DNA of 35,224 bases from NCBI GenBank assembly GCA_913050055.1, contig CAJXAT010000014.1:1-35224 (forward strand), given 5' to 3'. Numbering within the stretch: position 1 is the stretch's first letter; the number at the start of each line of letters is the position of its first letter. Below, in pieces: positions 9,559 to 35,224 of the stretch. The notes beneath the pieces are model-generated. The model was not told where the DNA came from, did no database searches, and saw nothing but the letters and a program-made list of their open reading frames with translations. The translations under genes and the position numbers were made by a program. The DNA comes from an uncultured Flammeovirgaceae bacterium (lineage in GTDB: Bacteria > Bacteroidota > Bacteroidia > Cytophagales > Cyclobacteriaceae).

Positions 9559-9917
9559 CTAATCAATAAAATAAAATACTGAGTTTCGAAATAAATTTTC
9601 CTGTCAGTTACTTAAATGTGACTGTGTGCCTCAGCTTTTAAGTCGACTCCTAAATTACAATTAGGATCTTGTCCTCTGAATTATACGCCTTACTTGTCTT
9701 CCTTTTTAGTTCACTTATTAATGAACTTGCATTTCTCTTCTTTCCCATTGTAGTTAAATTTAAGTGTTTAATCTGTTTAAAACACTCTCTTATAATTTAA
9801 CCCTTATTAGTTCACTTTTTGCTGATGGTATATAGGAGTCGAATTGGAAATACTTTTTATTTAGTCTTAGGGTTTCTTTTTTATTAGCATAATCAACTTA
9901 TTTTTACATTCTGTTTT
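9559..9917. other. Intergenic leader of the tRNA gene
   Basis: About 360 AT-rich bases. No coding frame is evident. A poor Bacteroidota-type promoter can be drawn (TTTC at 9873-9876 and TATTTTTA at 9899-9906) just in front of the tRNA; the match is weak and the spacing long. Confidence 0.3.
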
Positions 9918-12258: not shown

Positions 12259-12539
12259 TTATATCAAAGAATACGCTCGAGGCTTTTCTGTAAACAAAAC
12301 TTTCACCTTGGTCCAAGTGGTTTTAAAAAACAAAAACGCTTTGTATTTATTTAAATGGTCTGCTGATAGCCAATGGCTGTGCGTATAGAAAACATTGAAT
12401 TGATCTTGATTTCTGTATAAATGAATAGATTCACAACCTTTAAAGTCAGAAATTTTACCTTTGATATTTTTAAATAATTTCTAAAACACTAAGACTTTTT
12501 CTTCTTGAAATTCATACGGACAATTCTCAATAGCGTCAT
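12259..12539 (-). pseudogene. Broken antibiotic-biosynthesis-monooxygenase-like gene
   Basis: The ATG at 12539 overlaps the TGA of the SAM hydrolase gene (ATGA), so the ancestor was translationally coupled to it. The first frame reads MTLLRIVRMNFKK and then stops. After a frameshift in an A/G-rich run (about 12490-12505) the next frame continues with LFKNIKGKISDFKGCESI, then LYRNQDQFNVFYTHSHW and a terminal FTEKPRAYSLI. These match the N terminus, the FPGC-like core, the FFTYSYW-like strand and the LFSEKPEAW-like end of the small dimeric alpha/beta-barrel ABM (quinol monooxygenase-like) proteins of Bacteroidota. An amber codon at 12483-12481 also interrupts the frame. Two independent lesions make it a pseudogene. 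Confidence 0.8.
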
Positions 12540-13312
12540 TGAACATTGAAATTTATATAAACAGAAGCATCCATTCGGATACCTAATAGTTCTGAGGCTC
12601 GCCCCATATTAATGCCAATTTGTAAGACCTTTTCTGAATTAAAAAACACAAAACACTCACCAGGCTCGACTGCATCATAGCCTTCATGCAATCGATCAAA
12701 AATCTCTCTACCTATTTGTATTTGGAAGGTGACCTGTCCGTTAATTTTCTGGATTTCAAGATAATCAGTATGCTTAATATTAGTAATTAAATTGCCATAG
12801 TGATCTATATGAATGACATGTCCAACCATACCCTTTTTTGTAATTTTAGCGGTTCGATCAATCAGTTGCCGGTGATCAGTTATGATCTGACCAATGTGAT
12901 CAAGACCACGTCCCATGACCAGATCGTTGACGGCTTGACCAACTATTTTTAGATAAGTAGTTCCTGTATTAATAGGGCAAATTTCAACGACGAGGGAGGG
13001 GTTTTCAGTGCTTATAATACTGAAAATACCAGAATCTGTACCGATGAAGTGGTGGCCTTCCAAAGTGAGTCCAATCCATCGATTTTTCTGGCTTCTCGAA
13101 GAATTCATAGTAATGAGATGAACGGTACCCTTGGGAAATTTTTTGAAAGCATTGCGCAATACGTAACCTCCATGAGCGATATCTGATAATTTAATTTCAT
13201 GGCTGATATCAACGATGGTTAATTCGGGGTTGAGGCTTAGCAGCGTTCCTTTGGTAGCGGCTACATAATGGTCTTCTAATCCATAATCAGACATAAAAGT
13301 GATTAGGGCCAT
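12536..13312 (-). CDS. SAM hydrolase / SAM hydroxide adenosyltransferase (DUF62) family
   Basis: A 258-residue protein of the DUF62 family, whose members hydrolyse S-adenosylmethionine to adenosine and methionine; the fluorinase and chlorinase are relatives. It begins with the characteristic ALITFMSDYGLEDHYVAATKG, has GHHFIGTDSGIFS in the middle and HIDHYGNLITNI at the start of the C-terminal barrel. The canonical VDPGVGTxR loop, which carries the catalytic Asp and Arg in archaeal enzymes, is replaced here by MNSSRS; other Bacteroidota members also lack the canonical loop, to my recollection, so the activity is not certain. The ATG at 13312 is nearly back-to-back with the phoH frame. A broken monooxygenase-like gene follows with an ATGA overlap. 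Confidence 0.83.
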   Translation of the reverse strand: MALITFMSDYGLEDHYVAATKGTLLSLNPELTIVDISHEIKLSDIAHGGYVLRNAFKKFPKGTVHLITMNSSRSQKNRWIGLTLEGHHFIGTDSGIFSIISTENPSLVVEICPINTGTTYLKIVGQAVNDLVMGRGLDHIGQIITDHRQLIDRTAKITKKGMVGHVIHIDHYGNLITNIKHTDYLEIQKINGQVTFQIQIGREIFDRLHEGYDAVEPGECFVFFNSEKVLQIGINMGRASELLGIRMDASVYINFNVQ

Positions 13313-13395
13313 GTTTGAAAAGAATATTTGTTTTATTTGTTATTGAAAACGCAATAGCAAAAATAGGCAAAGACAATTTTAAAAAGACACTTCAC

Positions 13396-14340
13396 TTGCT
13401 CGAAAAAATATTTACACTAGAAAACATACCCTTGGTTGATTTTCTTGGAATAGAAAACGCCAATATAAATGAGATCATGTCGGCCTTTCCGGATACTAAA
13501 ATAATCTCAAGGGGCAATGAGATCACTATTCAAGGTGCTGCTCCTCAATTGGTCAAGATCAATGAAATTTTGAACTCATTGATTCTTCATTATCACAAAT
13601 ACGGGAATCTTACGCGGGATCAGGTCATTTCATATTTGGTAGATGAAAATCATCTAAATGAGGGTGATGATTTGGCAGAAATTTTGGTTTATGGTACCAA
13701 AGGGATTAAAATAAGTGCAAAGACCCCAAATCAAAAAAAACTAGTAACGGCCGTAAAGAAAAATGATTTGGTCTTCGCCTTAGGACCAGCAGGAACTGGA
13801 AAGACTTATATATCTGTAGCTTTGGCTGTGAAGGCATTAAAAAATAAAGAAATAGCCAAAATAATTATTACCCGACCAGCGGTAGAGGCAGGAGAAAGTC
13901 TGGGATTTCTTCCAGGAGATTTGAAGGATAAAATAGATCCTTATTTAAGACCTATTTACGATGCATTAAGCGATATGGTTCCGCCAGAGAAGTTGAAATT
14001 TTATCAGGAAAACAATATTATTGAGATAGCCCCATTGGCTTATATGAGGGGCAGAACGCTCAATAATGCCTTTATTTTGCTGGATGAAGCTCAAAATGCG
14101 ACACAAAATCAGATCAAAATGTTTCTCACACGTATGGGCCCTAGTTCAAAGGTAATTGTGACGGGCGATAAGTCTCAAATTGATTTACTGCCAAGGCAAA
14201 AATCAGGATTGCTAGAGGTGTTAGAAGTACTTAAGGAGACCAAAAATATTGGATTTGTACACCTTGACGAGCGAGATGTACTTAGACACCGCCTGATCAA
14301 AAGTATTATCAAAGCCTACCAAAAACATTATGAATCATAA
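13396..14340 (+). CDS. phoH: PhoH family ATPase
   Basis: A cytoplasmic P-loop ATPase of the PhoH family, probably acting in RNA metabolism. The open frame extends back to a TTG at 13315, but the family N terminus corresponds to the TTG at 13396, which gives MLEKIFTLENI and 314 residues, the usual length; the upstream 27 codons are unlike the family. Walker A is GPAGTGKT at 130-137 (from 13396), ITRPAVEAGESLGFLPGD follows, and Walker B is FILLDEAQNA near 226-235. GDKSQIDLP-like VTGDKSQIDLLP completes the signature. It is divergent from the SAM hydrolase gene. A broken GNAT gene begins ten bases before its stop, so the two were once coupled. Confidence 0.88.
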   Translation: MLEKIFTLENIPLVDFLGIENANINEIMSAFPDTKIISRGNEITIQGAAPQLVKINEILNSLILHYHKYGNLTRDQVISYLVDENHLNEGDDLAEILVYGTKGIKISAKTPNQKKLVTAVKKNDLVFALGPAGTGKTYISVALAVKALKNKEIAKIIITRPAVEAGESLGFLPGDLKDKIDPYLRPIYDALSDMVPPEKLKFYQENNIIEIAPLAYMRGRTLNNAFILLDEAQNATQNQIKMFLTRMGPSSKVIVTGDKSQIDLLPRQKSGLLEVLEVLKETKNIGFVHLDERDVLRHRLIKSIIKAYQKHYES

Positions 14341-14772
14341 GGTTGTAGCCGCAAATTTAGCTGTATTATTACATAAATCTATGAAATTAGACAACGTGTT
14401 TTCGTAAATGAACAAGGTGTTCCAGAGGCTATTGTACATTAAGATGCGGAAAGTTTGGCTCATTGTTTTGTTGCGGTAGATGAAGAGGGCAATGCCTTGG
14501 GTACCGCACGTTGGAGGAAAACCTCTCAAGGCGTGAAGCTCGAAAGGTTCGCAGTATTACCATTTTATAGAAGTAAAGGTTTAGGTGCAGATTTGTTAAA
14601 ATCCACTTTGGTAGATATTAAAAGTAAATTCGGATCGGGAGTACTCGTGTATTTAAACGCGCGATCGGAAGCTATAAATCTTTATGCCCACCAAGGATTT
14701 TTACCGATAGGACCGACATTTATTGAGACAGACATTATGCATCAAGGCATGTCTCAAAAACTTAAGCACTAA
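14330..14772 (+). pseudogene. Broken GNAT N-acetyltransferase gene
   Basis: The ATG at 14330 overlaps the end of phoH. The recognisable frame reads IYEIRQRVFVNEQGVPEAIV, then a TAA at 14440-14442, then DAESLAHCFVAVDEEGNALG, and onward through the acetyl-CoA-binding region (RFAVLPFYRSKGLG) to INLYAHQGF near the end. This is the normal order of the ElaA/YjcF-like GNAT acetyltransferases (RxxVFVxEQGVPE start). A second in-frame TAA is at 14374-14376, and the first codons are in another frame. With three lesions no full enzyme can be made; a fragment from TTG 14455 would lack the first third. Substrate of the ancestor is unknown. Confidence 0.85.
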
Positions 14773-14855
14773 AAGTGTCACTTCATTACATTATTTAATT
14801 AAAATAATACGACTTTTTCATTAATGAGTTATATTGTTGAAAACGGTATAACTGA

Positions 14856-16948
14856 ATGTATCTATGGAATAACTATCCTTTTTTGCGCTATTTATTGAGT
14901 TTAATCCTCGGCATATGGATCTATGATTTTCATTTAGAAATTGCATCTTATTCTACCATTTCAATATTTAGTGGGCTAGCGATTCTTTACCTCTGGCTTT
15001 TTGTGAGGAAGTATTCCTTATTTCTCAGTGGGATTACTGGTTTGTAAATGATTTATTTGATTGGATATGGCATGGCCTATTACAACGATAAGCGTAAAGA
15101 TTTGGACCATTTGAGTCATGTGGATATTCAGCAAATAAGTTCTTTTTCAGATTGGATTATAAAGGATCCTATTAAGCAAGAGAAATATGTCAGATATACC
15201 TTTCGAATAGATTCGGTGCTCCTAGGCGATCGGTCAATTAAAAGGGAGGGGAAGATTCAACTTCATGTACGGAAAGAAATACATAATACGGTCAGGTCTT
15301 ATGATTCTTATTTCTATGTATCTGGAAGTCTATTCCCCATCAGATCCTCTAAAAATCCTATGGCTTTTGATTATGCTCAATAATTAAACCGCAAACATAT
15401 TTATCATCAGTCTTATGTGCGAGATGATGACATTATGTGTATTGGTAGCTCTTCGCGTTTTAGTATCCGTGCTTTGGCATTTGAAATGAGGCATAAGGCA
15501 AAAGCCTTATTTCAAAATCAAATTAAGGATGCTCAGTCAAGGGTTGTAGTAGTTGCCTTCGTACTTGGGATTAAGGATTATTTAGACCAAGAACTAAAGT
15601 CAGCTTATGCTACTTCAGGGACTATGTACGTCTTAGCTTTATCAGGATTACACATGGGTATTATTTTTCTGATTTTAGGTTTTTTTTGAAACCCTTAAGA
15701 AATATATATTTAGGTCGCTATTACTATGGTATAGGGATCATCTTGGGACTCTGGCTTTATTCTTTTATAACTGGTCTCGTTCCCTCAGTAATTCGTGCGG
15801 CTACCATGTTTTCTATCGTGAGTTTGAGTGAAATGAATCATCGGAATTCTAATATTTATAATTCAATCGCACTGACCGCATTCGTATTGCCTTTGATTGA
15901 TTCAAATATGATTTATGACGTTAGCTTTCAACTTTCATTTATTGCTGTCACAGGGATTGTTATTTTTTTTCCTCTGTTCTATAGCTGTTGGGAGATAAAA
16001 ATCCAGTGGGAGATTATTTTTGGGCACTTATGTGCACTTCTTTGGAAGCGTAAATAGCTATCCTTCCTATTGCGATGTATTATTTTCATCAGCTTCCAAC
16101 ATATTTTTTATCATCCAATTTATGGGTATTACCCGCTACTTTTTGCATTCTTATTTTGGCAGTTGTATTGTTGGTAATCTCTTTATTTTTTGATCTAATC
16201 CATTTATATATGGGCTGGGCACTTTAAAATTTGATAAGTGTTATGAATGCCTATGTCATGTAGATTGAGCGGCTACCACACACTAAGATATCGGACTTGT
16301 ATCTTCATTCTAGTGAAGTTATAGTTATGTATTTGATACAGATATTGCTACTAGTTGCTTTTAGGAAAAAATCATTTGTACGGTTAGTATCTGGACTGCT
16401 ACTCATTATTTTTTGGCAAATAATTAATTTATTTACCCATATTAATGCTAATGAACGAAAAATGCTCGTGATCTATGATATGCAAGACCAAATGAATATC
16501 GATGTGATTGAGGGTTATTCTGCTCGTTTAATGATTGATCGGTACAAACCCAAATTTTCTGAACGCTTGAAATGAAGTAAAAATTCATTTTGTGGATTTT
16601 TAGGACTTCCGAGTGCTTTCAGTGATCTGACTGAGTTGTTTAGGACTGAAGAACTGAAACACTTTGGTCCCTTTCATCTGCTATTATGGCAAGGGCATAA
16701 AATTATATTTATAAATAATAATAATCAGCAGGGGAGTTTGTGGAAACGTTAAGTGTAGATTATGTCGTCATTATTGAGGAGTTAACCTTAGATTTTGACT
16801 ATTTATTGAGGTATTTAAAGACTGGGGACTTAGTCATTGGTTCTCATTGTTCTCACTATTATGCTGACAAAATCAGTACTTGGGCTCATGAAATAAACGT
16901 ACTTGTACATATTATAAAAAAGATGGTTATTGGATGTTAGATTTGTAG
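14856..16948 (+). pseudogene. comEC: Broken comEC (DNA-uptake channel) gene
   Basis: Joining the pieces gives a protein of about 697 residues, the usual size of Bacteroidota ComEC/Rec2, the inner-membrane channel for DNA uptake. Recognisable parts are the N-terminal WNNYPFLRYLLSLILGI, the OB-fold region with NPMAFDYAQ...HIYHQSYV, the LALSGLHMGIIFLI and VIRAATMFSIV competence-domain motifs, SFQLSFIAV, IAMYYFHQLPTYFL, IERLP, and a C-terminal LSVDYVVI then KKDGYWMLDL. In-frame stops are at 15045 (TAA), 15381 (TAA), 16051 (TAA), 16225 (TAA), 16261 (TAG) and 16573 (TGA). Frameshifts lie at the T8 run 15680-15687, between about 16000 and 16050, near 16738, and in the A run near 16915. The gene is dead by many independent events, so sequencing error cannot explain it. 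Confidence 0.93.
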
Positions 16949-17022
16949 TCACAGGAGCTGATATTATTGTTTTATATTTTTACAAAGCACTGATAAGATG
17001 AATGTGTTTAATGTAAATAAGT

Positions 17023-18759
17023 TTGACTGATCCGAAAGAGATATTGCGTAATCATTGGGGGTTTGAGCATTTTAGAGAATCTCAACTAGAAATCATAGAG
17101 TCCGTCCTAAAAGGTCAAAATACCCTTGCTTTATTGCCTACTGGAGGAGGAAAGTCAATTTGCTTTCAAATTCCTGGGTTGTTACTTGACGGCCTTACCC
17201 TAGTCGTCACTCCCTTGATCGCTTTGATGATTGATCAGGTGAATGAATTGAAAAAGAGAAACATAAAGGCCTTAGCTATTCATGGGGGCTTGTCTTCAAG
17301 AGAAATTGACATTCTTTTGGATAACTGCATTTACGGAGGTATTAAATTTCTTTACCTCTCTCCTGAAAGATTGGTTTCAGAGCTTTTTTTAGCCAGATTA
17401 GAAAAAATGGTCATTGCTTTGTTCGTCATCGATGAGGCCCATTGTATCTCTCAATGGGGCCATGATTTCAGACCTTATTATTTAAAAATCAAAGATTTTA
17501 CGGAATTGTTTCCAATGAAGAGGTTGATTGCTTTAACGGCTTCTGCCACTGAAGAGGTAAAAAAAGACATTATCAAGCAGCTGGACTTAGCGAATCCTAA
17601 AGTCTTTCAGAATACTTACGCACGCGATAATCTTTCCTATGTTGTCTTTAAAGGAAAAAATAAATTTCAAAAGGTATATGATATTCTCAATAAAGTTGCG
17701 GGATCTTCTATCGTATATGTGGGAAGTCGAAAGAGAGCTGAGCAGGTTTCCAGAGACTTAAATCAAAAGGGTATTTCTGCTCAATTTTATCATGCGGGCT
17801 TATCTTATGATGAACGAAATCAAAGACAAGCCGATTGGATACAATCAAAATTAAGAGTAATGGTAGCGACCAATGCGTTTGGTATGGGCATAAATAAACC
17901 CGATGTGCGCACGGTATTACATTTGGATTTGCCCCAAACATTGGAGGCCTATTATCAAGAGGCAGGAAGAGCGGGTCGAGATGGCTTGAAGGCTTATGCA
18001 GCACTTCTTTTCCATGATCAAGATATCGTTGAGACGGAGCAGTACATCTCTCGGGCAGCAGTAGATATTAAATTTGTCAAGCGTGTCTATCAAGCCCTAT
18101 CAAATAGGTATAAGATGGCGATTGGTAGTGGGGCAGGCTTGAGTTTTGATTTTGTCTTTATTGATTTCATTAATGATTTTGATTTACCTGCTTACCCAAC
18201 GGTATTTGCCCTCAAGAAGCTGGAAAACGCTGGCGTCATTGAGTTGACAGAAAATATTTTTCAAAAGTCCAAGATTTCCATGCTGATGCAACGAGAGGTG
18301 CTTTATCAGTTTCAGGTAGCTCATGCCTCACTTGATCCTTTGATCAAAGTACTTTTTAGGTTGTATGGGGGTGAGCTTTATACGAGCTATATGATGGTCA
18401 ATGAGGCAGACATCGCAGGCGTTTTAAAAATCAACTTAAAAAAAGCAAAAGAGCAGTTGAACCTGCTGCATGATTATCAAGTCATAGACTATCGAATGAC
18501 GACCTTCAAGCCACAAATTGAATTTATAGAGGGAAGATTGGATCTAGGATCCTTGCCTATCCAATCAGTTGATTTACAGAAAAGAAATGAGCAGATAGAG
18601 AATAAATTTCACCGGGTGCTTCATTATGTGAATACAAATCATATCTGTAGAACCAGAATGCTACAAGATTATTTTGGTGAGCAGACCGATTTGGACTGTG
18701 GCATCTGTGATTATTGTATTTCCAGAAAAAAAGTCTCGGTAGATTTGAATCCTCTTTAG
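17023..18759 (+). CDS. recQ: RecQ family DNA helicase, C-terminally shortened by an in-frame amber codon
   Basis: A 3'-5' superfamily 2 DNA helicase for recombination and fork repair. The start is a TTG; an in-frame TAA nine bases upstream excludes anything longer. Walker A is PTGGGKS (39-45), DEAH is at 137-140, the aromatic-rich loop AHCISQWGHDF follows, QEAGRAGRDG marks motif VI, and the zinc-binding cysteines are 542, 559, 562 and 565. The frame ends at TAG 18757-18759 after 578 residues. Reading on in the same frame gives 51 further codons (starting IIRSIPSQGIDLDALSTIFK) to a TAA at 18913-18915, making about 630 residues, the normal length of short Bacteroidota RecQ. The last part of the wing or C-terminal helix is thus lost unless the amber is read through. 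The helicase core is intact, so some activity may remain. Confidence 0.9.
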   Translation: MTDPKEILRNHWGFEHFRESQLEIIESVLKGQNTLALLPTGGGKSICFQIPGLLLDGLTLVVTPLIALMIDQVNELKKRNIKALAIHGGLSSREIDILLDNCIYGGIKFLYLSPERLVSELFLARLEKMVIALFVIDEAHCISQWGHDFRPYYLKIKDFTELFPMKRLIALTASATEEVKKDIIKQLDLANPKVFQNTYARDNLSYVVFKGKNKFQKVYDILNKVAGSSIVYVGSRKRAEQVSRDLNQKGISAQFYHAGLSYDERNQRQADWIQSKLRVMVATNAFGMGINKPDVRTVLHLDLPQTLEAYYQEAGRAGRDGLKAYAALLFHDQDIVETEQYISRAAVDIKFVKRVYQALSNRYKMAIGSGAGLSFDFVFIDFINDFDLPAYPTVFALKKLENAGVIELTENIFQKSKISMLMQREVLYQFQVAHASLDPLIKVLFRLYGGELYTSYMMVNEADIAGVLKINLKKAKEQLNLLHDYQVIDYRMTTFKPQIEFIEGRLDLGSLPIQSVDLQKRNEQIENKFHRVLHYVNTNHICRTRMLQDYFGEQTDLDCGICDYCISRKKVSVDLNPL

Positions 18760-18915
18760 ATCATTCGATCCATACCTTCTCAAGGAATAGATTTAGATGC
18801 ATTATCCACTATTTTCAAACTTTATGACCAAGAGGATTTCATCACTGTATTGCACAAGTTTATTGATGAAAATAAGATTTATTTTGAAAGTGGTGCGGTT
18901 ATTAAAAAACGATAA
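18760..18915 (+). pseudogene. recQ: Orphaned C-terminal tail of recQ
   Basis: This is 51 codons in frame with recQ after its amber stop, ending in TAA. The translation resembles the usual RecQ tail, with a predicted pair of helices (LDALSTIFKLYDQEDFITVL and a terminal HKFIDENKIYFE segment). It has no ATG or GTG start of its own in a sensible position, so it is read as the severed end of recQ. Confidence 0.75.
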
Positions 18916-26065: not shown

Positions 26066-26620
26066 ATCTTTGAATTTACCGCAAAATACTGTGGTTTATT
26101 TAACGTTGCATCAGTGGGCCAAAATATAATGTCAAATTTATACTTTACAAGCTTACGAGCATAAATAATTGCCTTTTAGAGCAAATATAAGCAGTTTTTT
26201 GTACAAAAAAAAGTGTAGGTAACAAATCAGTAATTGAAATTTTGGAAACAAATTCGACTACCAAAATCTCCTCCATTTAGTGCCATTTCTAGTACTATAA
26301 TATGTCATTATTTTCCCTCTTTTCTCTAGACCTCCTCCTCATAGATTTGATGCTTGAAAGCAAAGGTACTAATCTTCATTTTTCAAAAAAAAGATCAATG
26401 TACAACCTTGATTAGCAGTTGTAAATTGTAGGAGTTTGAGGCTTATTTTGAGGTGTTAGAAAGGGAGGTATTTGATGCAGCGTTAAGGTGAGAAATTCTT
26501 GATTTTAAATAAGGATATAACGTAATGTCCATCGTTTTAATTCGACAGCAAGTTTGTCAAGAGTTTGAATAATTTTTTTATCTAACTCTTGGGGTATGAT
26601 ATCTCAGGAGTTTTTTATAT
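26066..26620. other. Intergenic stretch with a dispersed repeat remnant
   Basis: About 555 bases between divergent genes. It presumably contains the promoter of the giant secreted protein. At 26423-26514 it holds a copy of a short coding-like repeat described separately. The rest shows no gene or RNA. Confidence 0.5.
26423..26514 (+). repeat. Dispersed coding-like repeat, copy 1
   Basis: This stretch reads EFEAYFEVLEREVFDAALR and then a stop. It matches copy 2 on the opposite strand near 33.2 kb at both the DNA and peptide levels (EFEA-FEVLERE-F). Both copies contain stops and continue past the stop into a similar CTTGATTT(T/G)AAATAAGG stretch. It is probably debris of one formerly repeated gene or element of unknown identity. 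Confidence 0.55.
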
Positions 26621-27157
26621 TTGTTTATTAAAATTTTTATCAACTTAAAAAATCACAATTTGAAATATTTAACACACACTCTTCCATGGATTTATTCTAT
26701 CTTATCTTATTTCTTTTTTGGAGGAATGATTTTTACGATGATGACACAATATCCTAATTGGGATTACAATTTGCCCGAATCAATGGTAATAAGAAATTCA
26801 TTCTATGCCGAGACAGACCCTGGAACTTTTTTCCAATTCTTTGGTCCGATTATCAATTTTGTATTTCTTGGAATGATTATTTTAATATGGCAAATAAAAA
26901 AAGTTAGGAATTTATTTTTAATTCAATTTGTAACATTTTTATTGATCGGAATTGGAACTGGGGTACTAATTTATCCCATACTTGACGAACTTGCCATTAA
27001 TACAATACCGCTCGAACAGATTCATAATCTTTTGCAAAAATTTAAATTACTTGACTCAATCCGAGCATTTATAGCTATAATCTCTGTTGTTCTTTTAACA
27101 TTTTCGATGATAGAGTTTAATAAAAGCATTTATTCTAAAGAGTTAAATACTAAATAA
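26621..27157 (+). CDS. Four-helix membrane protein, DUF1772-like
   Basis: A 178-residue integral membrane protein with four hydrophobic segments (about 24-44, 75-93, 101-121 and 150-168). The first loop is rich in aromatic and polar residues (MTQYPNWDYNLPESM). The arrangement, including that loop and the long second loop, resembles the DUF1772 / anthrone-oxygenase-like small membrane proteins, but this is a weak comparison. The start is a TTG supported by AGGAG ten bases upstream; an internal TTG near 26660 could also serve. The function is unknown. It is monocistronic and has no lesions. Confidence 0.6.
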   Translation: MFIKIFINLKNHNLKYLTHTLPWIYSILSYFFFGGMIFTMMTQYPNWDYNLPESMVIRNSFYAETDPGTFFQFFGPIINFVFLGMIILIWQIKKVRNLFLIQFVTFLLIGIGTGVLIYPILDELAINTIPLEQIHNLLQKFKLLDSIRAFIAIISVVLLTFSMIEFNKSIYSKELNTK

Positions 27158-27227
27158 TAAAAGCTTATTATTGAAATTTAAGGGATTCCCAATTAAACTC
27201 CTAGGATGTGATGACTCTAAGAGTTTT

Positions 27228-27414
27228 TTATGACCCATAGGCTTCACACTCAGGATCATCAATGTCGCAGCTCCCTCCTGCTTCCTCCAGCTTGAGTTTG
27301 TGTATTTGATACTTGAGATCCATATCAGCAAACATATTTCCAGTTAGCTGTGCCTGTAGATCGGCTATCTTTTCACTAATGCAGCTTTTTGATTTTGTCG
27401 TAGCTCAGATCCAT
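27228..27414 (-). pseudogene. Frameshifted small protein with a Cys-containing tail
   Basis: From an ATG at 27414 the frame gives MDLSYDKIKKL and then meets a stop. One frame over, the sequence continues ISEKIADLQAQLTGNMFADM, then DLKYQIHKLKLEEAGGSCDI and ends ECEAYGS before a TAA at 27230-27228. The composite of about 62 residues has a helical coiled core and a short acidic Cys-bearing tail, as in a small Bacteroidota family of unknown function with CxxCGS-like ends. One single-base indel near 27385 explains the break. There is no alternative start in the second frame. Confidence 0.6.
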
Positions 27415-27613
27415 GACACAAAATTAATTATGATTTGACCAATACCTTCAGATGGAAAGTATTCACTAAGGTTAGTTTACGCTCGTTTCGAATAACGAAA
27501 TAAATAAACTAGTCTTTGGAATTGATTAAGACAACTTTTTTATTAGAATTGGTGTTTAAACTTAATCATGATTAACAAAAAAATTAACGATGAATAAATA
27601 TGAATAAAATTAA

Positions 27614-28003
27614 ATGAAAATTATACTGATCAGTCTAACAATCATGCTAACTTCAACCCTTTGTTATGGGCAAGACTCCTCTGATGTGTTTAGAGCTCAG
27701 CGTATCAAAAATGATTTAAATTTTCAGAAACCATATCGAATTTTAAAGACGACATTCAAAAATTTAGATGAATTTCAAAATTATTATCCTGGAACTGAGA
27801 TTACCCTAGAAAAGCTGTTAAGATTTCATTTGTATACAGAAATTCACATTAATCAAGAGGAAAATAAATTGATCTCAATGGATCAAACTGAATTTCAGCT
27901 AAAAAAAATGAATTCGGCAGAAGCAATAACGAAAGAAACTGTAGAGCTCATTAGCAATATGTACTTTGGTTCAAATGAGATGAAAGAATTATCGAAAAAG
28001 TAA
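27614..28003 (+). CDS. Secreted hypothetical protein
   Basis: A 129-residue protein with a clear signal peptide (MKIILISLTIMLTSTLCYGQ, cleavage near residue 19-20). The mature part is hydrophilic and rich in Lys, Glu and Asn, with no cysteine pairs and no recognised domain. It is preceded by a run of A/T-rich bases and no strong ribosome-binding site. The frame is open and codon use is like its neighbours, so it is probably a real gene, exported to the periplasm. Confidence 0.6.
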   Translation: MKIILISLTIMLTSTLCYGQDSSDVFRAQRIKNDLNFQKPYRILKTTFKNLDEFQNYYPGTEITLEKLLRFHLYTEIHINQEENKLISMDQTEFQLKKMNSAEAITKETVELISNMYFGSNEMKELSKK

Positions 28004-28325
28004 ATACTAATGCCAACAATTTTTTTTCTTAAAATCGTTCCTCCTAACATAATCTTTGGCATCTTTATAGAAGGGGGATGAAGCCTTATCTATAAGGCTC
28101 ATATAAGCCTTTATAAAGCATTCTCTTTCCCGCTTAATAAGAAAATTCTACACTGACGTTTCTTCACAATAGCTTTAAATCTTGTCTGTGGGGTGCTTAA
28201 ATCGGGGATGTATACAGCCGTTTTAAAGGAGATTAATAGTACTTGCGAGATTTCTCTAAAGAGGTGATATTAGAGGATTTTGGTATGATAATGGCCATAC
28301 TATAGGTGCATCAAACCTTAAGAAA
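28004..28325. other. Intergenic stretch with a short hairpin
   Basis: About 320 bases. AGCCTTAT-CT-ATAAGGCT at 28082-28099 is an 8-bp inverted repeat, followed by a partial third copy (ATAAGCCTTTAT). It lacks a T run, so it is not a standard terminator. No coding frame is evident. Confidence 0.35.
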
Positions 28326-28805
28326 ATGAATAAAGGCAAAAAATTTCACTAAATTCTAGGCCTTATATTACTCATTACAATTGCCGCATTTAATCAGAGA
28401 AATGAAACTCCTCTGCGATTTGAATTTAATTCCTTCACGGTTGTAGAGTCAATTATTCCTAACGGAATAGGAAAATCAAGAATTATCAACTCATTAGAGC
28501 TGCGTGATCACAAAGAATACACCAGTATCAAATCGCCAGGGTTAAAGTCAAGAAATAAATCAGATCGCCAGGAAATTCGAGCTAATGAGTACGAAGAAAC
28601 CAAACTGTTGAACTTTTTTAATGTTGTTGGTATCAGATTTCAAAATATTGCTGCCAATGATGCTTTAATTAACGACAAGGTCAGTACCATGCTTAACGAC
28701 GGTTGGGAATTAGCCAACATTGTTGTAGGAGTGGAATCCGTGGGTAGCAAAGATGATAAAAATGGTATTTTCACCACCCGATTTTATTTCAAGTGCAGCA
28801 TTTAA
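28326..28805 (+). pseudogene. Secreted protein gene with one early TAA
   Basis: From the ATG at 28326 the frame reads MNKGKKFH, a TAA at 28350-28352, and then continues without interruption for 150 codons: a signal-peptide core (ILGLILLITIAAF), then FEFNSFTVVESIIPNGIGKS, a middle section with TKLLNFFNVVGIRFQNIAAN, and NDGWELANIVVGVESVG near the end, finishing FTTRFYFKCSI. The pattern (VVESVxPxGxGxSR ... GWEL) resembles a small family of exported Cytophagales proteins of unknown function. It is one substitution away from an intact 159-codon gene. A second fragment of similar type lies near 30.3 kb. Confidence 0.7.
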
Positions 28806-29056
28806 CATCTTTTTTTTGGTAAAGTGCCTACAAACTTTGCTTGTTAAGAAAGTGATTCACCATAACCCTGTTGAGTTAAAAAATGCAGTTATGACCATTT
28901 CTTGGAATGATGAGATGATGATCCATTTGAATTAAAGATGAAGAACATCTAAACCTTTAAAACTGCATTTAAGTTCTTTCCAATACTTACTAAAGCATTA
29001 AAGCTTAGATAATTAATTATAAATTTCTTATTTTAGGGTACCTATATAATACCATA

Positions 29057-29338
29057 ATGAAAAACAATCAAAAAAATATTGCCTTCATCACCTTGATGAT
29101 AAGTTTGATATGGACTGTGTCGTGTAATGGAAATAACAATGACATGAGCTGTGTTTGTTACATTTATGAAAATGGTTCACAAACTGGTATAGATGAAACT
29201 GGATTAGATAATGGTGCCTTCACTTCTGATATTAAATTCAGAAAAGGATGTGAGGCAAAGTCTTTATTCATTGATGATGATAATTATTCTAGCTGTCAGA
29301 TCGTTCCTTTGTCAGGTGGAAGTGGGATCACAAATTAA
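29057..29338 (+). CDS. Small Cys-containing lipoprotein, hypothetical
   Basis: A 93-residue lipoprotein. The signal peptide ends in the lipobox WTVSC at Cys23. The mature part has four further cysteines (in MSCVCYIY, GCEAK and SSCQI), which suggests two disulfide bonds in the periplasm or on the surface. It has no recognised domain. The ATG is preceded by an AT-rich leader (TATAATACC). It appears intact. Confidence 0.6.
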   Translation: MKNNQKNIAFITLMISLIWTVSCNGNNNDMSCVCYIYENGSQTGIDETGLDNGAFTSDIKFRKGCEAKSLFIDDDNYSSCQIVPLSGGSGITN

Positions 29339-29533
29339 TCCGACCAATAGGAAACAATAAATTGATTTTTTTAGCTTTGTGGAAAACTATGATCATTGGC
29401 TTTGGGGTGAAAATACATTATGCGACAACCCATATCTCTCTTTTAGAGAATTAAAACTAAGGATAGAGTGATTGAAAAACTGATGAAATTTATTGAAACA
29501 TTTATTGGAAGAATGGTGGCCTAAAATGATAAG

Positions 29534-30217
29534 GTGAACAAAAATATTTCGAAATATATAATTGAATTCGTTGTTATCGTACTCAGTATAAGTATTTCTT
29601 TTTTTCTTGAAAACAAAAGGATCGATAACGAAACAAAAAATAGAGGAAAACTTATCAAGATTAATTTAAAAAATGAGTTAAACAACGCAAATGCATATCT
29701 GCAATCTAGGGATAAAGCTTACTCGGTGGATTTAGATTTCTTAAATGCATTACTTGACAAAGAAGTTGATTTAGATAGTTTACATAGTTTAGGATTAGAT
29801 GGTGCTGGATATTATAATTCTATTTGTTTTTGGAGGAATTTTAATCCCCCAAGGGCAATTTACTCTTCATTAGTTAGCGATGGAGAAATAAATCTAATAG
29901 CAGGAATAGAAATAAAAGAATTACTATATCGAATTTATGTACTAAGTCCGGAATATCTTAATGTACACATTGAAGGTGATAACAGAGCCGCTATAGAAAT
30001 TGAATCCTATTTAATTTATAATTATCCAAGTTTTTTTAACAAAGGATTGGTGACAAATGACAATATTATAATCTTAAAAGAATTAAGAAGGATTGTATTT
30101 AATGATAACACTTTGATGGCTTTACTGAAAAGAAAGCAGTTAAGAATGGACAGTAAATTAAGTGTTTTTAGGAATCATTTATCATTGAGAGAATCAATAG
30201 CAGAGAAATGGAATTAA
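29534..30217 (+). CDS. Single-pass membrane-anchored protein, DUF6090-like topology
   Basis: A 227-residue protein with one N-terminal hydrophobic helix (residues 8-25) followed by a long charged, largely helical domain. The layout (short basic start, hydrophobic segment, then ENKR and helices) is like that of DUF6090-type Bacteroidota proteins, but the match is only topological. The start is a GTG. The same frame is open upstream of a TAA at 29522-29524, reading MKFIETFIGRMVA, so the N terminus may have been shortened by a nonsense mutation. No function is known. Confidence 0.5.
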   Translation: MNKNISKYIIEFVVIVLSISISFFLENKRIDNETKNRGKLIKINLKNELNNANAYLQSRDKAYSVDLDFLNALLDKEVDLDSLHSLGLDGAGYYNSICFWRNFNPPRAIYSSLVSDGEINLIAGIEIKELLYRIYVLSPEYLNVHIEGDNRAAIEIESYLIYNYPSFFNKGLVTNDNIIILKELRRIVFNDNTLMALLKRKQLRMDSKLSVFRNHLSLRESIAEKWN

Positions 30218-30344
30218 TGGTATTGCCGATGTTCAATTCCTATACGGCGAAAGACCTGATGAGGATAAAGTGAACACCATTCTCACTAAGGGCTGGAATT
30301 ACCTTGCCCTTGAAGAGTGGAAATTGAATGAAGATTTAGATTGA
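30213..30344 (+). pseudogene. Fragment of a GW-motif secreted protein
   Basis: A frame of about 44 codons ends at TGA 30342-30344 and reads ADVQFLYGERPDEDKVNTIL then TKGWNYLALEEWKLNEDLD. The VNxILxxGWxxL pattern is like the end of the interrupted gene at 28326 (STMLNDGWEL). It overlaps the end of the preceding gene in another frame and has no start of its own, so it is read as the 3' end of a lost gene. Confidence 0.4.
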
Positions 30345-30348
30345 AATT

Positions 30349-30648
30349 ATGAAAATAAAAATCACAGGTATTATTACTGTCGTTGGTGGACTTATGGTAG
30401 TCGTATGGAGTTCATTTGTCATCATCGACAATAAGTATATACACAATATCAATGCCGTTTTTACTCTATTGATAATTTTATCGATATGTGCCATGCTCTA
30501 TGTCTACTGGACAAAATTTGGAGCCCTTGGTCAAACAATGGATAGAATACAGAGACAAAACAAACTAATCCAATCCCAAATAGAATTTGAAAAGATTAAA
30601 AAAGATATAGAGCAAAAAAAATTAAAGAAAAGATCGTATGAGGATTGA
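30349..30648 (+). CDS. Small membrane protein with a C-terminal coiled coil
   Basis: A 99-residue protein with two membrane-spanning segments (about 7-26 and 36-54) and a charged, heptad-like C-terminal helix from about residue 60 (QTMDRIQRQNKLIQSQIEF) that should lie in the cytoplasm. It has no recognised family. The ATG follows the preceding fragment by four bases. It appears intact, one of several small membrane proteins in this region. Confidence 0.55.
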   Translation: MKIKITGIITVVGGLMVVVWSSFVIIDNKYIHNINAVFTLLIILSICAMLYVYWTKFGALGQTMDRIQRQNKLIQSQIEFEKIKKDIEQKKLKKRSYED

Positions 30649-30649
30649 T

Positions 30650-30725
30650 TTAAACGTCGTTCTGAGCAAGGAGCTTGAGAATATTCACTAGGTTGTTGTC
30701 ATAATCTAATTTTAATATCCATAAA
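30650..30725 (-). pseudogene. C-terminal fragment paralogous to the 85-residue protein at 32.0 kb
   Basis: On the minus strand the last 25 codons before a TAA at 30652-30650 read WILKLDYDNNLVNILKLLAQ and end NDV. The intact gene at 31979-32236 ends LVDTLKKLAENDV. The two tails align over about 20 residues, so this is a remnant of a second copy. Upstream the frame is closed by stops. Confidence 0.5.
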
Positions 30726-30944
30726 AGTTATCTATTCAGAACCTGGGGTGTAATTATCATATTGAGCAAGTATGAATTATGGGAAACCCTCTTTATATCA
30801 CGGGGTGGGTAATGAATATAAAATCTAAGTGGGTTTTCAACTCCTATCTATCACCTAATAAAGTAACCCGAACTTTGCGCCAAGCGGTCAATCGTCATAA
30901 TAACTCCATAGTCTTGTCACTATAGCGACGTATATTTAGACATG

Positions 30945-30955
30945 GCTACAACCCA
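30945..30955 (+). repeat. 11-base direct repeat, left copy
   Basis: GCTACAACCCA, repeated exactly at 31701-31711, with partial similarity extending about 15 bases to its left. The two copies bracket the decayed gene on the minus strand. Confidence 0.4.
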
Positions 30956-30965
30956 AGTATCACTA

Positions 30966-31497
30966 TTACAAACCATACAAACCAGATATCAGTATTACTA
31001 AAATTAAAAAAATAGCCCATCTAACTGCATTTATGATTAATAGGGCTTTAGATATACGTGCAACTCGCTTATACCCCACAAAAGCCAATATTGGAGATAT
31101 TATTAAACTAATACTTGGTATAAAAAGTGTTAACGCACTAGCGATGGTCTGATAACTCCTTTTACCTTCTTTTGAAGTTTCTTTCTGAGCTTCTTCTTTT
31201 TCTTGTAAGGGAACAACAAGACCACTTTCTAGTATGCTTGTATCGAATTTAATATCACCTAGTCGAGTTATTTTTTTATTTAGTTTATTGTTTCATCTTG
31301 TGTCTTTCCTGGACATATTTATCTAATTCCTTGTAAGTACTCAACTTAGAATGAATAAAATCCTCTGATGCTACAGCAACGGATTTTAAAGAAGCGTTCT
31401 GAATAATTTTAGATTTATTCTGAATAGATGATTTGGGAGCACTTGTTCTGGAGAAGCCAAAACTTTTAGATTTTTCTCTCCTAATGAGGGGTATTTC
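30966..31497 (-). pseudogene. Decayed membrane protein gene
   Basis: The downstream part reads KLNKKITRLGDIKFDTSILE, then SGLVVPLQEKEEA, and two hydrophobic helices (ASALTLFIPSISLIISPILA and AIFLILVILISGLYGL) up to a TAA at 30968-30966. The upstream part, in another frame, reads SVAVASEDFIHSKLSTYKEL followed by DKYVQERHKMKQ, then stops near 31288. The two parts join across one frameshift into a protein with a Ser/Lys-rich N-terminal half and two C-terminal helices. No start can be found upstream of 31497. The family is not named with confidence. An 11-base direct repeat lies on each side (30945 and 31701). Confidence 0.55.
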
Positions 31498-31700
31498 CTT
31501 ATGGTATTAAATTTCTAGGCTGTAGCAAAATCAAATTTTGAAGTCGTACAACTATTTTAAAGTAGGAGTATAAAAAGTGAAAGGGTAATTTTGGATATGG
31601 TAAGTTTATCTATGGTAATTTAAGCCATAAAAATTATGTATTAATTGCAAATAGCTGTTTGCTTTTTCTCCTGATAGATAGAGGAGTACAAATAAGGATA

Positions 31701-31711
31701 GCTACAACCCA
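31701..31711 (+). repeat. 11-base direct repeat, right copy
   Basis: The second exact copy of GCTACAACCCA. It could be a target-site or recombination scar, or a coincidence in AT-rich DNA. No transposase is present between the two copies. Confidence 0.4.
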
Positions 31712-31766
31712 TAGTCTCAACGCTGTAAGTTTTTGGATCATTAATTAGAATGATTAGTTTAGCCCC

Positions 31767-31963
31767 ATGGCAAAAGTTAAAAAGTACTTAAGTAGTTTTT
31801 CTACCACCCTAGTCTTTATCGGGTTACCATTGTTAGGTCATCACAATTTTTTTGGAAGGAAGCCCCAAATGCTTGGGATTATGGCTTTGCAATATTTATA
31901 CACCTTACTTTTGTTTTAATTTTGGTCAATGACATCATTGCATTTAGTAAGGGGATAAAGTAA
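31767..31963 (+). pseudogene. Frameshifted two-helix small membrane protein, paralogue A
   Basis: The ATG frame reads MAKVKKYLSSFSTTLVFIGL then PLLGHHNFF. At a T7 run (31857-31863) the frame slips; one base over it continues WKEAPNAWDYGFAIFIHLTF then VLILVNDIIAFSKGIK and a TAA at 31961-31963. Adding one T restores a 65-residue protein with two membrane helices and a central xxWDYGxAI motif. Paralogue B on the opposite strand (34089-34310) shares LPLL, WDYG-AI and ILV-DI. The lesion could be a sequencing slip, but the partner copy is broken differently. Confidence 0.65.
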
Positions 31964-31978
31964 TTAGAAGAAGATTAA

Positions 31979-32236
31979 TTAAACATCATTCTCAGCCAAC
32001 TTCTTCAGAGTATCGACTAAATTATAGAAATCCGCTTTCTTGTCGTACTTAATTCTCTTTTGAACATATGATTCAATTTCAAGCATCAATGCTCTATGCC
32101 CCTTAAATGACTTATCCAAATCATGCTTTCTCCTAAATTCTTCAATAACAAAGTCATCGAAGAACTGGCAATAGTGGTTAAAAAGCTTTGATTCTCCACT
32201 TTGCTTAAACTCAATAGTGTTGTTGAATTGATTCAT
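31979..32236 (-). CDS. Small soluble hypothetical protein
   Basis: An 85-residue protein, hydrophilic and largely helical, with no signal peptide. It has charged helices (for example RRKHDLDKSFKGHRALMLEI) and ends in LKKLAENDV. The C terminus is matched by the fragment at 30650-30725, so the family has at least two copies here. The ATG at 32236 has no obvious ribosome-binding site. The function is unknown. Confidence 0.55.
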   Translation of the reverse strand: MNQFNNTIEFKQSGESKLFNHYCQFFDDFVIEEFRRKHDLDKSFKGHRALMLEIESYVQKRIKYDKKADFYNLVDTLKKLAENDV

Positions 32237-32511
32237 AATTATTTCAATTATAGATTATCCTCGGACATCATTCAAACCCTAGGGTATTTATTACCTTCAA
32301 CAAATAAAAATTTACAAAAAATTTAAAAAAGTAGAATTATTTTAAATAGATGACAATAGATATGGTCCTCCTAAATAGCACAGGAGCACCATTATCTAAA
32401 TTCTAATTACAAGGTTTTTCTAATGAGTTCCTCGTTATCATAAAAAGCTTTGATTCGCTTTCATATTTGACTTTATTTTGAGATGTGATTCTTTCCATGT
32501 ATTAAACTTCG

Positions 32512-32976
32512 CTATCTTCTAACATATCCTCCGCTTGAGGATCTGTATTCTATTTGAAAACCATTATCAATAGCGAATTTCCGGAAGTCATCAGATGCAT
32601 TGCCGATAGTAATAAATGATTCTATTTCAAAGAGCTCAAAAAATTTCTCAAAGTTAAGTCCATTCACAAAATCTTTACCGTGCTGAATCCCATCTTTACT
32701 ATTGTTGTAGCGTTCAATTAACGTGACCTTTTCTCCATCTTCTGAAATAAAATAGTCATAAACTGTGGAAGGTTCCCTCTCAACGATAAAGTCTGCTAAA
32801 TATTGAGTGAATTTTTCAACTTCTACTTTAGATTGACCTATTACCTTTAGTTCTAAAACAAATGTGATTTCTTGTGATTCTGAGTTATTTAGAACCTTAA
32901 GTTCTCTGGTTTGTTCATTGTTTACGCAACTTGCAGTAAAACATAAGACTCCCAAAAAATAGATAAATGTTTTCAT
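32512..32976 (-). CDS. Lipoprotein with an antibiotic-biosynthesis-monooxygenase-like domain
   Basis: A 154-residue protein with a lipoprotein signal peptide (lipobox CFTASC, Cys17). The mature part follows the ABM / quinol-monooxygenase-like ferredoxin fold: a first strand ITFVLELKV near 37-45, a helix EVEKFTQYLADFIVE, a strand with STVYDYFISEDGEKVTLIER, a helix HGKDFVNGLNFEKFFELFEI and a terminal ESFITIGNASDDFRKFA. Such domains normally form cytoplasmic dimers, so a lipid-anchored form is unusual. Whether it has catalytic activity cannot be judged. The ATG at 32976 starts the signal peptide and the gene looks intact. A broken cytoplasmic relative lies at 12.3 kb. Confidence 0.65.
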   Translation of the reverse strand: MKTFIYFLGVLCFTASCVNNEQTRELKVLNNSESQEITFVLELKVIGQSKVEVEKFTQYLADFIVEREPSTVYDYFISEDGEKVTLIERYNNSKDGIQHGKDFVNGLNFEKFFELFEIESFITIGNASDDFRKFAIDNGFQIEYRSSSGGYVRR

Positions 32977-33341
32977 AATGAGTAAATTTAAATTACTATT
33001 TACTCATTAAATTATTATTTCTAAACGACAAATAATCAAGATACCCTAAGGATCAGATTTTAGAATACAAATTCAAAAAGCTTTTGATAAAAAACTTATT
33101 ATTGAAGTAATATTGGATATTAATTTAACCCTTATTTCAAATCAAGGATCACACTCACCCCAACACCTCATGAAATGCTTCCCGTTCTAGCACCTCAAAT
33201 TAGGCTTCAAACTCCTCCAACTTTTCTACTGATTTTTGAAAAGTAAAAAAAAGCACTTAGATCAACTTTTAAGGGTCATTAAAAGTAATTAAGATTTTTG
33301 ATCAATAATAAAGGCATAATAAATTTTATATATTTAAGGGT
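32977..33341. other. Intergenic stretch with a dispersed repeat remnant
   Basis: About 365 bases between divergent reading directions. It holds the second copy of the dispersed coding-like repeat (33129-33240, minus strand). Nothing else was recognised. Confidence 0.45.
33129..33240 (-). repeat. Dispersed coding-like repeat, copy 2
   Basis: On the minus strand this reads FQKSVEKLEEFEA, a TAA, then FEVLEREAFHEVLG and a TGA. It aligns with copy 1 at 26423-26514 (EFEAYFEVLEREVFDAAL), and the flanking DNA after the stop is also similar (CTTGATTTGAAATAAGG against CTTGATTTTAAATAAGG). It is the longer of the two copies. Confidence 0.55.
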
Positions 33342-33997
33342 ATGAGAAAACTATTCATTCTTTTATTATTAATTCCATTATTTTCTGTTCGCCAGAATAG
33401 CCCTCAAATATCAAAAGATATAATCTATTACGGAAAGGATTTTTTTGGATTAGAAGGGGCTGTTATTCCAGATTCTCTTAAAAGAATCGCTATGATAGAT
33501 TACCTTTTTAATATAAAAATATAGTTCGAGATTTGTTGTGGGATTTGTCAAAAGCTTCAGCAGGAATGTATGTTCGGTTTTTTTTAATTCAAAAAGTATT
33601 AGTGTAAAATGGACACTTTTAAATGAATTATATGGCTGAAACTGGCATTAAAGGTGTTGACTTATATTTTAAAAATAAAGACAACTGGTAATACCTAAAT
33701 ACAGGCCGTCCAGAGGGTATTAAAAACGAGTCCTCTTTGATAGATAATATGTCTATCGAAATGTGGGAGTTTAAGATATTTTTACCCCTTTATGATGGCA
33801 TTTCAAATATTGAAGTGGGAATTGATTCAAAGAGTATTATTGAAAAACCTATACGAAATGGTAACAAACCAATAATTTTTTACGGAACAAGATCACGCAA
33901 GGGATTGTGCTTCTCGTGCAGGAATGGTATATATCAATGTTATTTCAAGGAAATTGAATTTTGTTGTATAAACTTTGTGAATCAAAAATTTTTTTGA
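33342..33997 (+). pseudogene. Decayed SGNH/GDSL-type hydrolase, N-terminal two thirds
   Basis: The fragments, in order across frames, are a signal peptide (MRKLFILLLLIPLF), a KDIIYYGKDFFGLEG start, then LLWDLSKASAGMYVRFF, NSKSISVKWTLLNELY in another frame, then MAETGIKGVDLYFKNKDNW, a TAA, and NTGRPEGIKNESSLIDNMSI through FLPLYDGISNIEVGIDS to NKPIIFYGT. This is the N-terminal beta-rich domain and GTSITQGG-like start of the SGNH esterase domain of a Bacteroidota secreted hydrolase family. Past the YGT block the frame changes again (CASRAGMVYINVISRKLN) and the rest of the catalytic domain is missing. At least four frameshifts and two stops occur, plus 3' loss. Confidence 0.75.
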
Positions 33998-34088
33998 GGT
34001 TTGAGCAATACCTTAAAAGTTTTATCCCAATTTGAAAAGTTCTTTATTCAAGGTCGTTGCCAAAATAAGATCGACGTTCTTTATGTAC

Positions 34089-34310
34089 TCATATGTTCTT
34101 CTTGGCTATTTTTCTTCTGTAACCGACTATGTCAGTGACTAATATCAGAGCAAGAGCAACAAAATTTATTATTGCAATACCATAATCCCAATCATCTGGG
34201 TAATCTGTATGCAAGAAATCTTGAACTACTAATAGTGGCAGTCAACAAAACATTAGGGTACTGGAAAAATTACCGAACAACCAAGCAAATGCTTTTTTCA
34301 AACTTGCCAT
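34089..34310 (-). pseudogene. Small two-helix membrane protein with an in-frame TGA, paralogue B
   Basis: The ATG at 34310 opens MASLKKAFAWLFGNFSSTLM and FC, a TGA follows at 34244-34242, and the same frame goes on LPLLVVQDFLHTDYPDDWDY then GIAIINFVALALILVTDIVG to RRKIAKKNI and a TGA at 34091-34089. It would give about 73 residues with two membrane helices. The alignment to paralogue A (31767-31963) covers the whole length: LPLL, WDYG-AI and LILV-DI are shared. It is one substitution from an intact gene. Confidence 0.65.
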
Positions 34311-35079
34311 GAGGCTAAAGTAAGTATTCTGATTAAAAATCCAAAGACCTGTAGCGTTAAGAGTATGGGGTTATATGACATCTGACGGCTCGGCTCGATC
34401 TGCGGATTGCAAAAAATTTAGGGGGTGTCTCCGATTTAGTGGTTTCAAATAGGATTTTTCCACCTATTTGTTACTTTAGTTCTATAATATAGGCTTAAAT
34501 AGACCCTGGAGCATATAGTAATTATACAAAGGAGATAATTTACAAAACTTTCAAAGTTAGATCCAGGAATATAAAAAAGTCAATACCTGCATTTTTGCAA
34601 TACTTTAAAAACCATAGCACCTGGTCCCCACTCATGTTACTATCCAATTATTAACCTACCTAATCATTACTTATAATATTGAATCATCCAGATACCCAAC
34701 CAAAAAAAGATGAGAAAATGCAAGTACGAAAAGTGTAGAAAAATCAGAAGAGCAACTCGCATCTCCACCCATCCGAAATCAATACAACCACGACTATAAT
34801 TTTATCTTTTCTAATCGACTCCAGGATTGGATTTATTCTCCAAAAAGAATCTACGAGGATAGGAGAAGAAAGAAGAGAAAAAAATTAGGGAGAGTGGTTA
34901 AGGAGGAGGTTGGGTTACCTCTAAAAATGTTACTTATCTGTTACTCAATTTTTTTTAAGTTAAAAACCCTATTATTCAGCATATAAAGGGGTTTTTTGGT
35001 TACTGTAATTTAACAAGAAAAAGTACAAATTCTCTGTACTTGTATATCAGTGAATTCAACTGGGCATGTGTTTGCCAAT
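34311..35079. other. Intergenic stretch, mostly unrecognised
   Basis: About 770 bases without a supported gene. A short basic ORF begins at the ATG near 34710 (MRKCKYEKCRKIRRATR, about 28 codons). A longer open frame without a start overlaps it to about 34983 and is rich in Arg and Lys. Around 34963-34998 a CCCT...AGGGG pairing followed by T6 might be a terminator. AAGTACA (35021-35027) and TGTACTT (35035-35041) form a 7-bp hairpin. None of these is firmly supported. Confidence 0.3.
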
Positions 35080-35224
35080 ATGAAGTTGAAAGGGGTCGCG
35101 CTTCTATTAATGCTCCTGATTTTGAGACATTTGGGTAATAAATGACCAATCATCTTCTTCTTTTGATAGAAGACTTGACCACTTTAGGATCAATATTTTA
35201 ATACCCATAACTGCTCATCGAATT
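35080..35224 (+). pseudogene. Possible start of a secreted protein, interrupted, cut by the window edge
   Basis: An ATG opens a signal-peptide-like stretch (MKLKGVALLLMLLILRHLGN) that stops after 21 codons. One frame over, the sequence stays open to the last base (VINDQSSSSFDRRLDHFRIN). This may be a frameshifted exported protein that continues beyond the window, or a chance reading. No family is recognised. Confidence 0.25.

Follow-up and report, generated by a model that had tools for sequence, protein, structure and literature searches.

The gene comEC is a pseudogene in the stretch of DNA analysed here (contig CAJXAT010000014.1, positions 1–35,224, hereafter the window; contig C14 in our numbering), and its decay appears to be one part of a repeated, pathway-wide loss of natural transformation within a Cyclobacteriaceae genus that lives free in the sea. 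From the sequences compared, we put the probability of this reading at roughly 0.82. The window belongs to a metagenome bin of an uncultured Flammeovirgaceae bacterium [assembly GCA_913050055.1, here G000; 2.77 Mb in 209 contigs, 84.9% complete], which was compared with nine relatives of the same genus (G001–G009), G008 serving as the intact reference. The near relatives carry names that we take to belong to marine surveys, and the genus itself is, by our inference, UBA4465. Excerpts of the published work, which is cited in this way throughout, name the Cyclobacteriaceae clade UBA4465 among the free-living metagenome-assembled genomes (MAGs) of a North Sea spring bloom, with high SusC-like expression (PMC10877868), and list UBA4465 for ocean and plume (PMC7597016).

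Compared with the open frames in G008 (699 codons) and G002 (698 codons), comEC of G000 carries six stops in its ancestral frame and four frameshifts. Both open copies lie at the same place, between the genes for a GNAT acetyltransferase and RecQ. The ten lesions within this one gene, none of them shared with the copies of G003 or G004, are more than chance. In the relatives, comEC is broken in G003, G004 and G007 (in the last by a frameshift and a stop ahead of the contig end) and deleted in place in G001, G005 and G009. A disabling lesion common to G000, G003 and G004 was looked for in the aligned copies and none was found; a shared ancestral comEC lesion in these three was therefore rejected. 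G005 and G009, about 90% identical in DNA, have one comEC deletion in common and retain a similar remnant, whereas the breakpoints in G001 differ. A search for a second comEC in the 84.9% of the genome represented by the G000 bin returned only the copy in the window and one match below the cut-off.

A tree of the genus was built from 17 flanking genes (9–17 per genome) with G007 chosen as root: (G007,(G002,((G001,(G005,G009)),(G008,(G004,(G000,(G003,G006))))))). The placement of G002 has only 56% support. On this tree and from the lesions themselves, comEC would have been lost at least four times, or five times if G007 is counted.

ComEC is the inner-membrane DNA channel, DprA loads RecA on incoming single strands and ComM acts in branch migration. 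In G000 comEC, dprA, comM and comF lie on four different contigs and all four have disabling lesions; as far as the assembly shows, the link between them is functional and not spatial. The dprA gene (contig C88) has four stops and four frameshifts, and comF (contig C91) two stops and one frameshift. The comM gene (contig C2) has one stop plus three indels that shift the frame; two of these indels are close neighbours and the reading frame is recovered after them, which leaves a single net break near codon 271. The last 300 bases of contig C20 (L143) hold a comM-like fragment of 103 codons with about 58–62% protein identity to the genus copies. This was considered as a second, intact comM and rejected, the fragment being foreign or misassembled.

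Across the relatives, dprA is open in G004 and G008, carries disabling lesions in G007 and has been deleted in place from G001, G003, G006 and G009. The comM frame remains open in G004, G006 and G008; it is interrupted in G003 and deleted in place from G001 and G005. The comF gene is open in G002, G007 and G008 and broken in G003 and G006. Only in G008 are all four genes known to be open; in G002 two are open and two loci are missing. G004 has lost comEC and kept dprA and comM, and G006 has lost dprA and comF and kept comM; these patterns differ, and the four genes were thus not lost in one fixed order. In Riemerella, also a member of the Bacteroidota, comEC, dprA, comF and recA are essential for transformation in the account excerpted (PMC8459023), and a role of ComM in exchange is described for diderms (PMC11472951, in part). 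Loss of all four genes would be expected to end transformation.

Scored by hand in nine genomes (G008 excluded), 20 of 26 competence-gene copies are broken or deleted, 11 of these being broken in place, and 6 are open. An automatic rule, applied alike to these genes and to their neighbours, gives 6 intact, 9 broken and 9 deleted competence copies (18/24 broken or deleted) and 201 intact, 9 broken and 22 deleted neighbour copies (31/232). The rule counts in-place deletions, takes the surroundings of dprA from G004 and leaves out absent, partial and contig-edge copies lacking both flanks (156 + 8 neighbour copies, 12 competence copies). Six of the 22 neighbour deletions are of one 284-codon gene and six of two pieces of an S41 peptidase gene; with deletions set aside, 181 neighbour copies are intact and 12 broken (12/193, which includes a contig-end case, mnmG of G000). 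Fisher values computed on the hand scoring and this narrower neighbour count take related genomes as independent and omit neighbour deletions, and no weight is placed on them.

Genes further afield were sampled by comparing contig stretches of G000 and G004. Of 98 orthologs assessed, 87 are intact in G000; the other 11 comprise GNAT, comEC, recQ and comM, two genes with a stop only near one end and five with clear breaks. About 5 of the 94 other sampled genes are therefore clearly broken in G000, an EamA transporter and an inositol monophosphatase among them, and decay outside the competence genes is modest. The reverse comparison finds 85 of 94 genes intact in G004, five with a stop only near one end and four with clear breaks (4/94). 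One of these four is the recG gene of G004 (L195, about 12796–14885), apparently split by one frameshift, which may be a sequencing error; its counterpart in G000 is open over 697 codons.

In the rest of the family, comEC is matched in 146 of 151 genomes (unmatched in G023, G077, G127, G153 and G181) and dprA in 149 of 151 (unmatched in G031 and G120), some of the dprA matches being partial or below the family cut-off. No internal stops were found in comEC copies from outside the genus among the matches listed. G023 and G153 both belong to genus g15, where two of the three sampled members have no comEC match.

The ratio of non-synonymous to synonymous substitution rates (dN/dS) of comEC is 0.22 for the open pair G002–G008 and reaches 0.59 for G000–G004, 0.50 for G000–G003 and 0.47 for G003–G004. 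For the same G000/G003/G004 pairs the flanking genes, except GNAT, give 0.09–0.25. That comEC stays under 1 is consistent with constraint having lasted for some of the period after the species diverged.

The recQ gene adjoining comEC has a single TAG (amber) codon at 18757–18759 in G000, and both its helicase domains and its zinc-binding region precede it. At least four different lesions in the genus (those of G000, G003, G001 and G005/G009) have removed the last 50–60 codons, just past the zinc-binding cysteines; long frames of 632–637 codons are found in G002, G004, G007 and G008. Beside the losses of competence genes, this recurrent shortening is a second parallel. Between G000, G003 and G004 the tail has a dN/dS of 0.42–0.59, a value based on only about 51 codons. 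G000 has two more open RecQ frames, 751 and 713 codons long. Treating recQ as an inactivated gene was rejected, since the domains precede the amber codon, the body is under purifying selection and the two paralogues are open; the truncated gene probably encodes a helicase that is still used and has lost a dispensable tail. The tail is truncated in five of the seven genomes with a dead comEC and in neither of the two with an open one, numbers too few to test, and the way in which its loss tracks that of comEC is suggestive only. Outside the genus, recQ was seen at 4 of 20 comEC loci, the flanks of the rest being too short. The initial annotation, made from the window, had proposed relaxed selection on both DNA uptake and recombination. 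For uptake this is well supported, with dprA, comM and comF broken in G000 and no second comEC found in its 84.9% complete bin; for general recombination it is not supported, given the open RecQ paralogues, RecG and Mfd and the purifying selection on the body of recQ.

Several observations weigh against repeated loss of transformation, or against the count of losses given here. Most of the genus genomes are metagenome bins, and in G003 there are isolated frameshifts in housekeeping genes (mnmG, for example), so that single indels in that genome may be sequence errors. The scoring has gaps: comEC was not scored in G006, nor dprA in G002 and G005, nor comM in G002 and G009, all of these loci being missing from the assemblies; the comM of G007 is divided between contig ends, and comF had no full match, or a site off the contig or not located, in G001, G004, G005 and G009. 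With its two unread loci, G002 may also be complete for competence genes. Some lesions are shared: G000 and G003 both have a comF stop at codon 139 and a comM frameshift near codon 169, and a comF stop at codon 169 is found in both G003 and G006. G006, the sister of G003, nevertheless has an open comM. The dN/dS of phoH rises from 0.03 (G002–G008) to 0.22–0.25 (G000/G003/G004 pairs) and that of the recQ body from 0.08 to 0.125–0.21, and since flanking genes rise too, the rise in comEC alone is no proof of relaxation; only the level of its dN/dS, not the rise, sets comEC apart. Two neighbours have also been widely lost. G008 has an intact copy of the S41-family peptidase gene adjoining dprA (L133:7810–9312 of G008); the copy of G004 is broken, and the gene is gone from G000, G001, G003 and G006, where the site could be read. 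The 284-codon gene adjoining comM (L137:10997–11851 of G008) is retained by G008 and G007, and six of the seven genomes assessed against G008 have lost it in place. Lesion rows of G007 are rough in any case, identity being low (54–76%).

Could the stops and frameshifts simply be errors of assembly or sequencing? The bins are fragmented, and the housekeeping frameshifts of G003 and the foreign-looking comM-like end of contig C20 would suit such a view, but ten lesions fall within one 2.1 kb gene, while phoH on its upstream side is intact and recQ on its downstream side has a long open frame, and in-place deletions recur in other assemblies, including that of G009 (isolate AG-461-K05, presumably a single-cell style of name), which makes error very improbable. 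The initial annotation likened the region to host-restricted lineages in genome decay; on such a reading most non-essential genes would erode, competence genes among them. Genomes of the genus are indeed small (1.8–3.2 Mb, against 2.9–9.4 Mb for the other family genomes listed), and genes outside the competence set are broken too, both in the G000 sample and among the neighbour copies. Under the same rule, however, three-quarters of the competence copies are broken or deleted (18/24), G082 retains full-length comEC and dprA frames in a genome of 2.9 Mb, and the reported free-living fraction to which UBA4465 is assigned (PMC10877868, as excerpted) speaks against host restriction, this being evidence at the level of the genus through a bin–UBA4465 link that is itself inferred. 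General decay is accordingly quite unlikely as the source of the pattern.

Had the pathway failed just once, in an ancestor of the whole genus, say through loss of a regulator or of an uptake component acting upstream, the visible lesions would be later noise. Such a failure would account for the loss of several unlinked genes, as expected when an upstream step fails, and for the comF and comM lesions shared by G000 and G003 and the comF lesion shared by G003 and G006. Yet G008, nested within the genus, has all four genes open and G002 retains comEC and comF, and the dN/dS of pairs of dead comEC copies (0.47–0.59) stays well under 1, as partial-time constraint predicts, so that one ancestral event seems unlikely. 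Active removal of the genes by selection against uptake, whether because incoming DNA was harmful or because mobile elements favoured hosts that cannot be transformed, would likewise yield repeated loss of one pathway. A conflict with mobile elements has been proposed for Legionella and Acinetobacter (PMC11472951, in the excerpt used) and a foreign comEC reduced viability in Piscirickettsia (PMC12955456, likewise), but the broken competence-gene copies that were aligned (G000, G003, G004 and G006) showed no large insertion, the lesions being stops, small indels and deletions. We regard this explanation as possible, though doubtful.

Repeated loss of transformation by relaxed selection could have proceeded as follows. 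Cells would no longer have gained from DNA uptake, or would have been harmed by it; once one component failed, selection on the other uptake genes would have lapsed, and the unselected genes would have decayed by point lesions first and by deletion afterwards. The most likely course would be that uptake ceased to pay in the plankton. A fuller version, which we offer only tentatively, would have a planktonic genus midway through abandoning transformation, with four or five losses of comEC, at least one loser lineage that has since speciated (G005/G009), and a recQ tail that was possibly a transformation-specific module.

The features of the segment around comEC are collected in the table below. 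The initial annotation had counted four of its six protein genes as inactivated; this stands for the ABM-like gene, GNAT and comEC and not for recQ, which is shortened by about 52 residues and not clearly dead. The two genes that it had listed as open, those of the S-adenosylmethionine (SAM) hydrolase and PhoH, are so. It had also seen a local cluster of broken genes: the lesions are real, and their spatial clustering means little, related losses lying on other contigs.

Features of the segment 12,259–18,915 of the window
Feature	Position	Strand	Remarks
ABM-like gene remnant, interrupted	12259..12540 (about)	−	73-codon open stretch; the name ABM is a label of the initial annotation
SAM hydroxide adenosyltransferase (SAM hydrolase), intact	12536..13312	−	PF01887 and PF20257
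phoH, intact	13315..14340	+	PF02562, E = 1e-91
GNAT acetyltransferase pseudogene	14330..14772	+	PF13673 and PF13508; frameshift and stop in N-terminal third
comEC pseudogene (DUF4131 and Competence domains)	14856..16948	+	Pieces of PF13567 and PF03772
recQ with truncated C terminus	17023..18759	+	DEAD, Helicase_C and RecQ_Zn_bind before stop
Former recQ tail, about 52 codons	18760..18915	+	Readable in frame to 18915, untranslated with recQ

The SAM hydrolase gene is intact in all eight compared genomes holding the locus and has a dN/dS of 0.12–0.18 (G000/G003/G004 pairs); phoH is matched in nine of the ten genus genomes. The ABM-like gene, open over 104–105 codons in G008 and G002 as against 73 in G000, is shortened in G003 and G004 and unrecognizable at full length in G001, G005 and G009, the five other relatives read. 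GNAT, the start of which overlaps the stop of phoH, is broken in G000 only and open over 146–147 codons in all eight relatives read; its dN/dS is 0.92 even for the open G002–G008 pair, so that the measure is uninformative for this gene. The lesions in GNAT and in the ABM-like gene are probably unrelated, ordinary losses nearby. Elsewhere in the window, at 9663–9832, G002, G003 and G004 hold about 1.9–2 kb extra with response-regulator genes, none of which is in the window; one is also found in G008 and one is broken in G003. The stretch 26600–35224 has a lower G+C content (0.30–0.32) and few long open frames, and most of the relatives' stretches that were read end near 26 kb. A plasmid search with the window region gave no match.

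What makes bacteria retain transformation or give it up is a long-standing question. In this genus intact, partly decayed and cleanly deleted states stand side by side, and the timing, order and consequences of loss thereby become measurable. Candidates for unknown uptake parts of the Cytophagales would be genes left intact in G008 whose decay elsewhere accompanies that of comEC, dprA, comM and comF; the S41 peptidase gene and the 284-codon gene could be viewed as such. The window also serves as a correction, in that broken genes lying close together gave the impression of general decay, while the strongest signal is specific to one pathway.

Loss of competence by gene decay is an already known kind of event. 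No paper on such a loss in Cyclobacteriaceae or UBA4465 was found among those that searches of an open-licence library listed, as judged by title and the opening of the abstract. As excerpted, one close parallel is that of the Pasteurellaceae (PMC1626085), where competence is ancestral and three of eight species have gene defects of recent origin. The likeness lies in ancestral competence and in defects spread across several species of one family; here, in contrast, four genes have been lost in most assessable members of a genus, and G005 and G009 share a comEC deletion at ~10% DNA divergence. The authors of that study suggest that competence losers may be evolutionary dead ends, and the diversification of G005 and G009 after loss of comEC, if true, would weigh against this. 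In Piscirickettsia salmonis (PMC12955456, in the part available) comEC is likewise dead in all genomes inspected, but that organism is a fish pathogen whose comEC is interrupted by transposable elements and whose other transformation genes are intact; here dprA, comM and comF have decayed too and no inserted elements were seen. ComEC is also lost in endosymbionts and intracellular pathogens, Blattabacterium being the example from the Bacteroidetes (PMC6299819, excerpt), there as whole-gene loss from reduced genomes, unlike the present planktonic bacteria in which reduction is not extreme. The excerpt on Riemerella anatipestifer (PMC8459023) describes functional genes, as shown by experiment, and three of those found there to be essential for transformation, comEC, dprA and comF, are all broken in G000. 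Set beside these systems, the present case stands out in three respects: within a single free-living genus the separate losses are numerous, four unlinked genes are involved, and one lineage without comEC has diversified.

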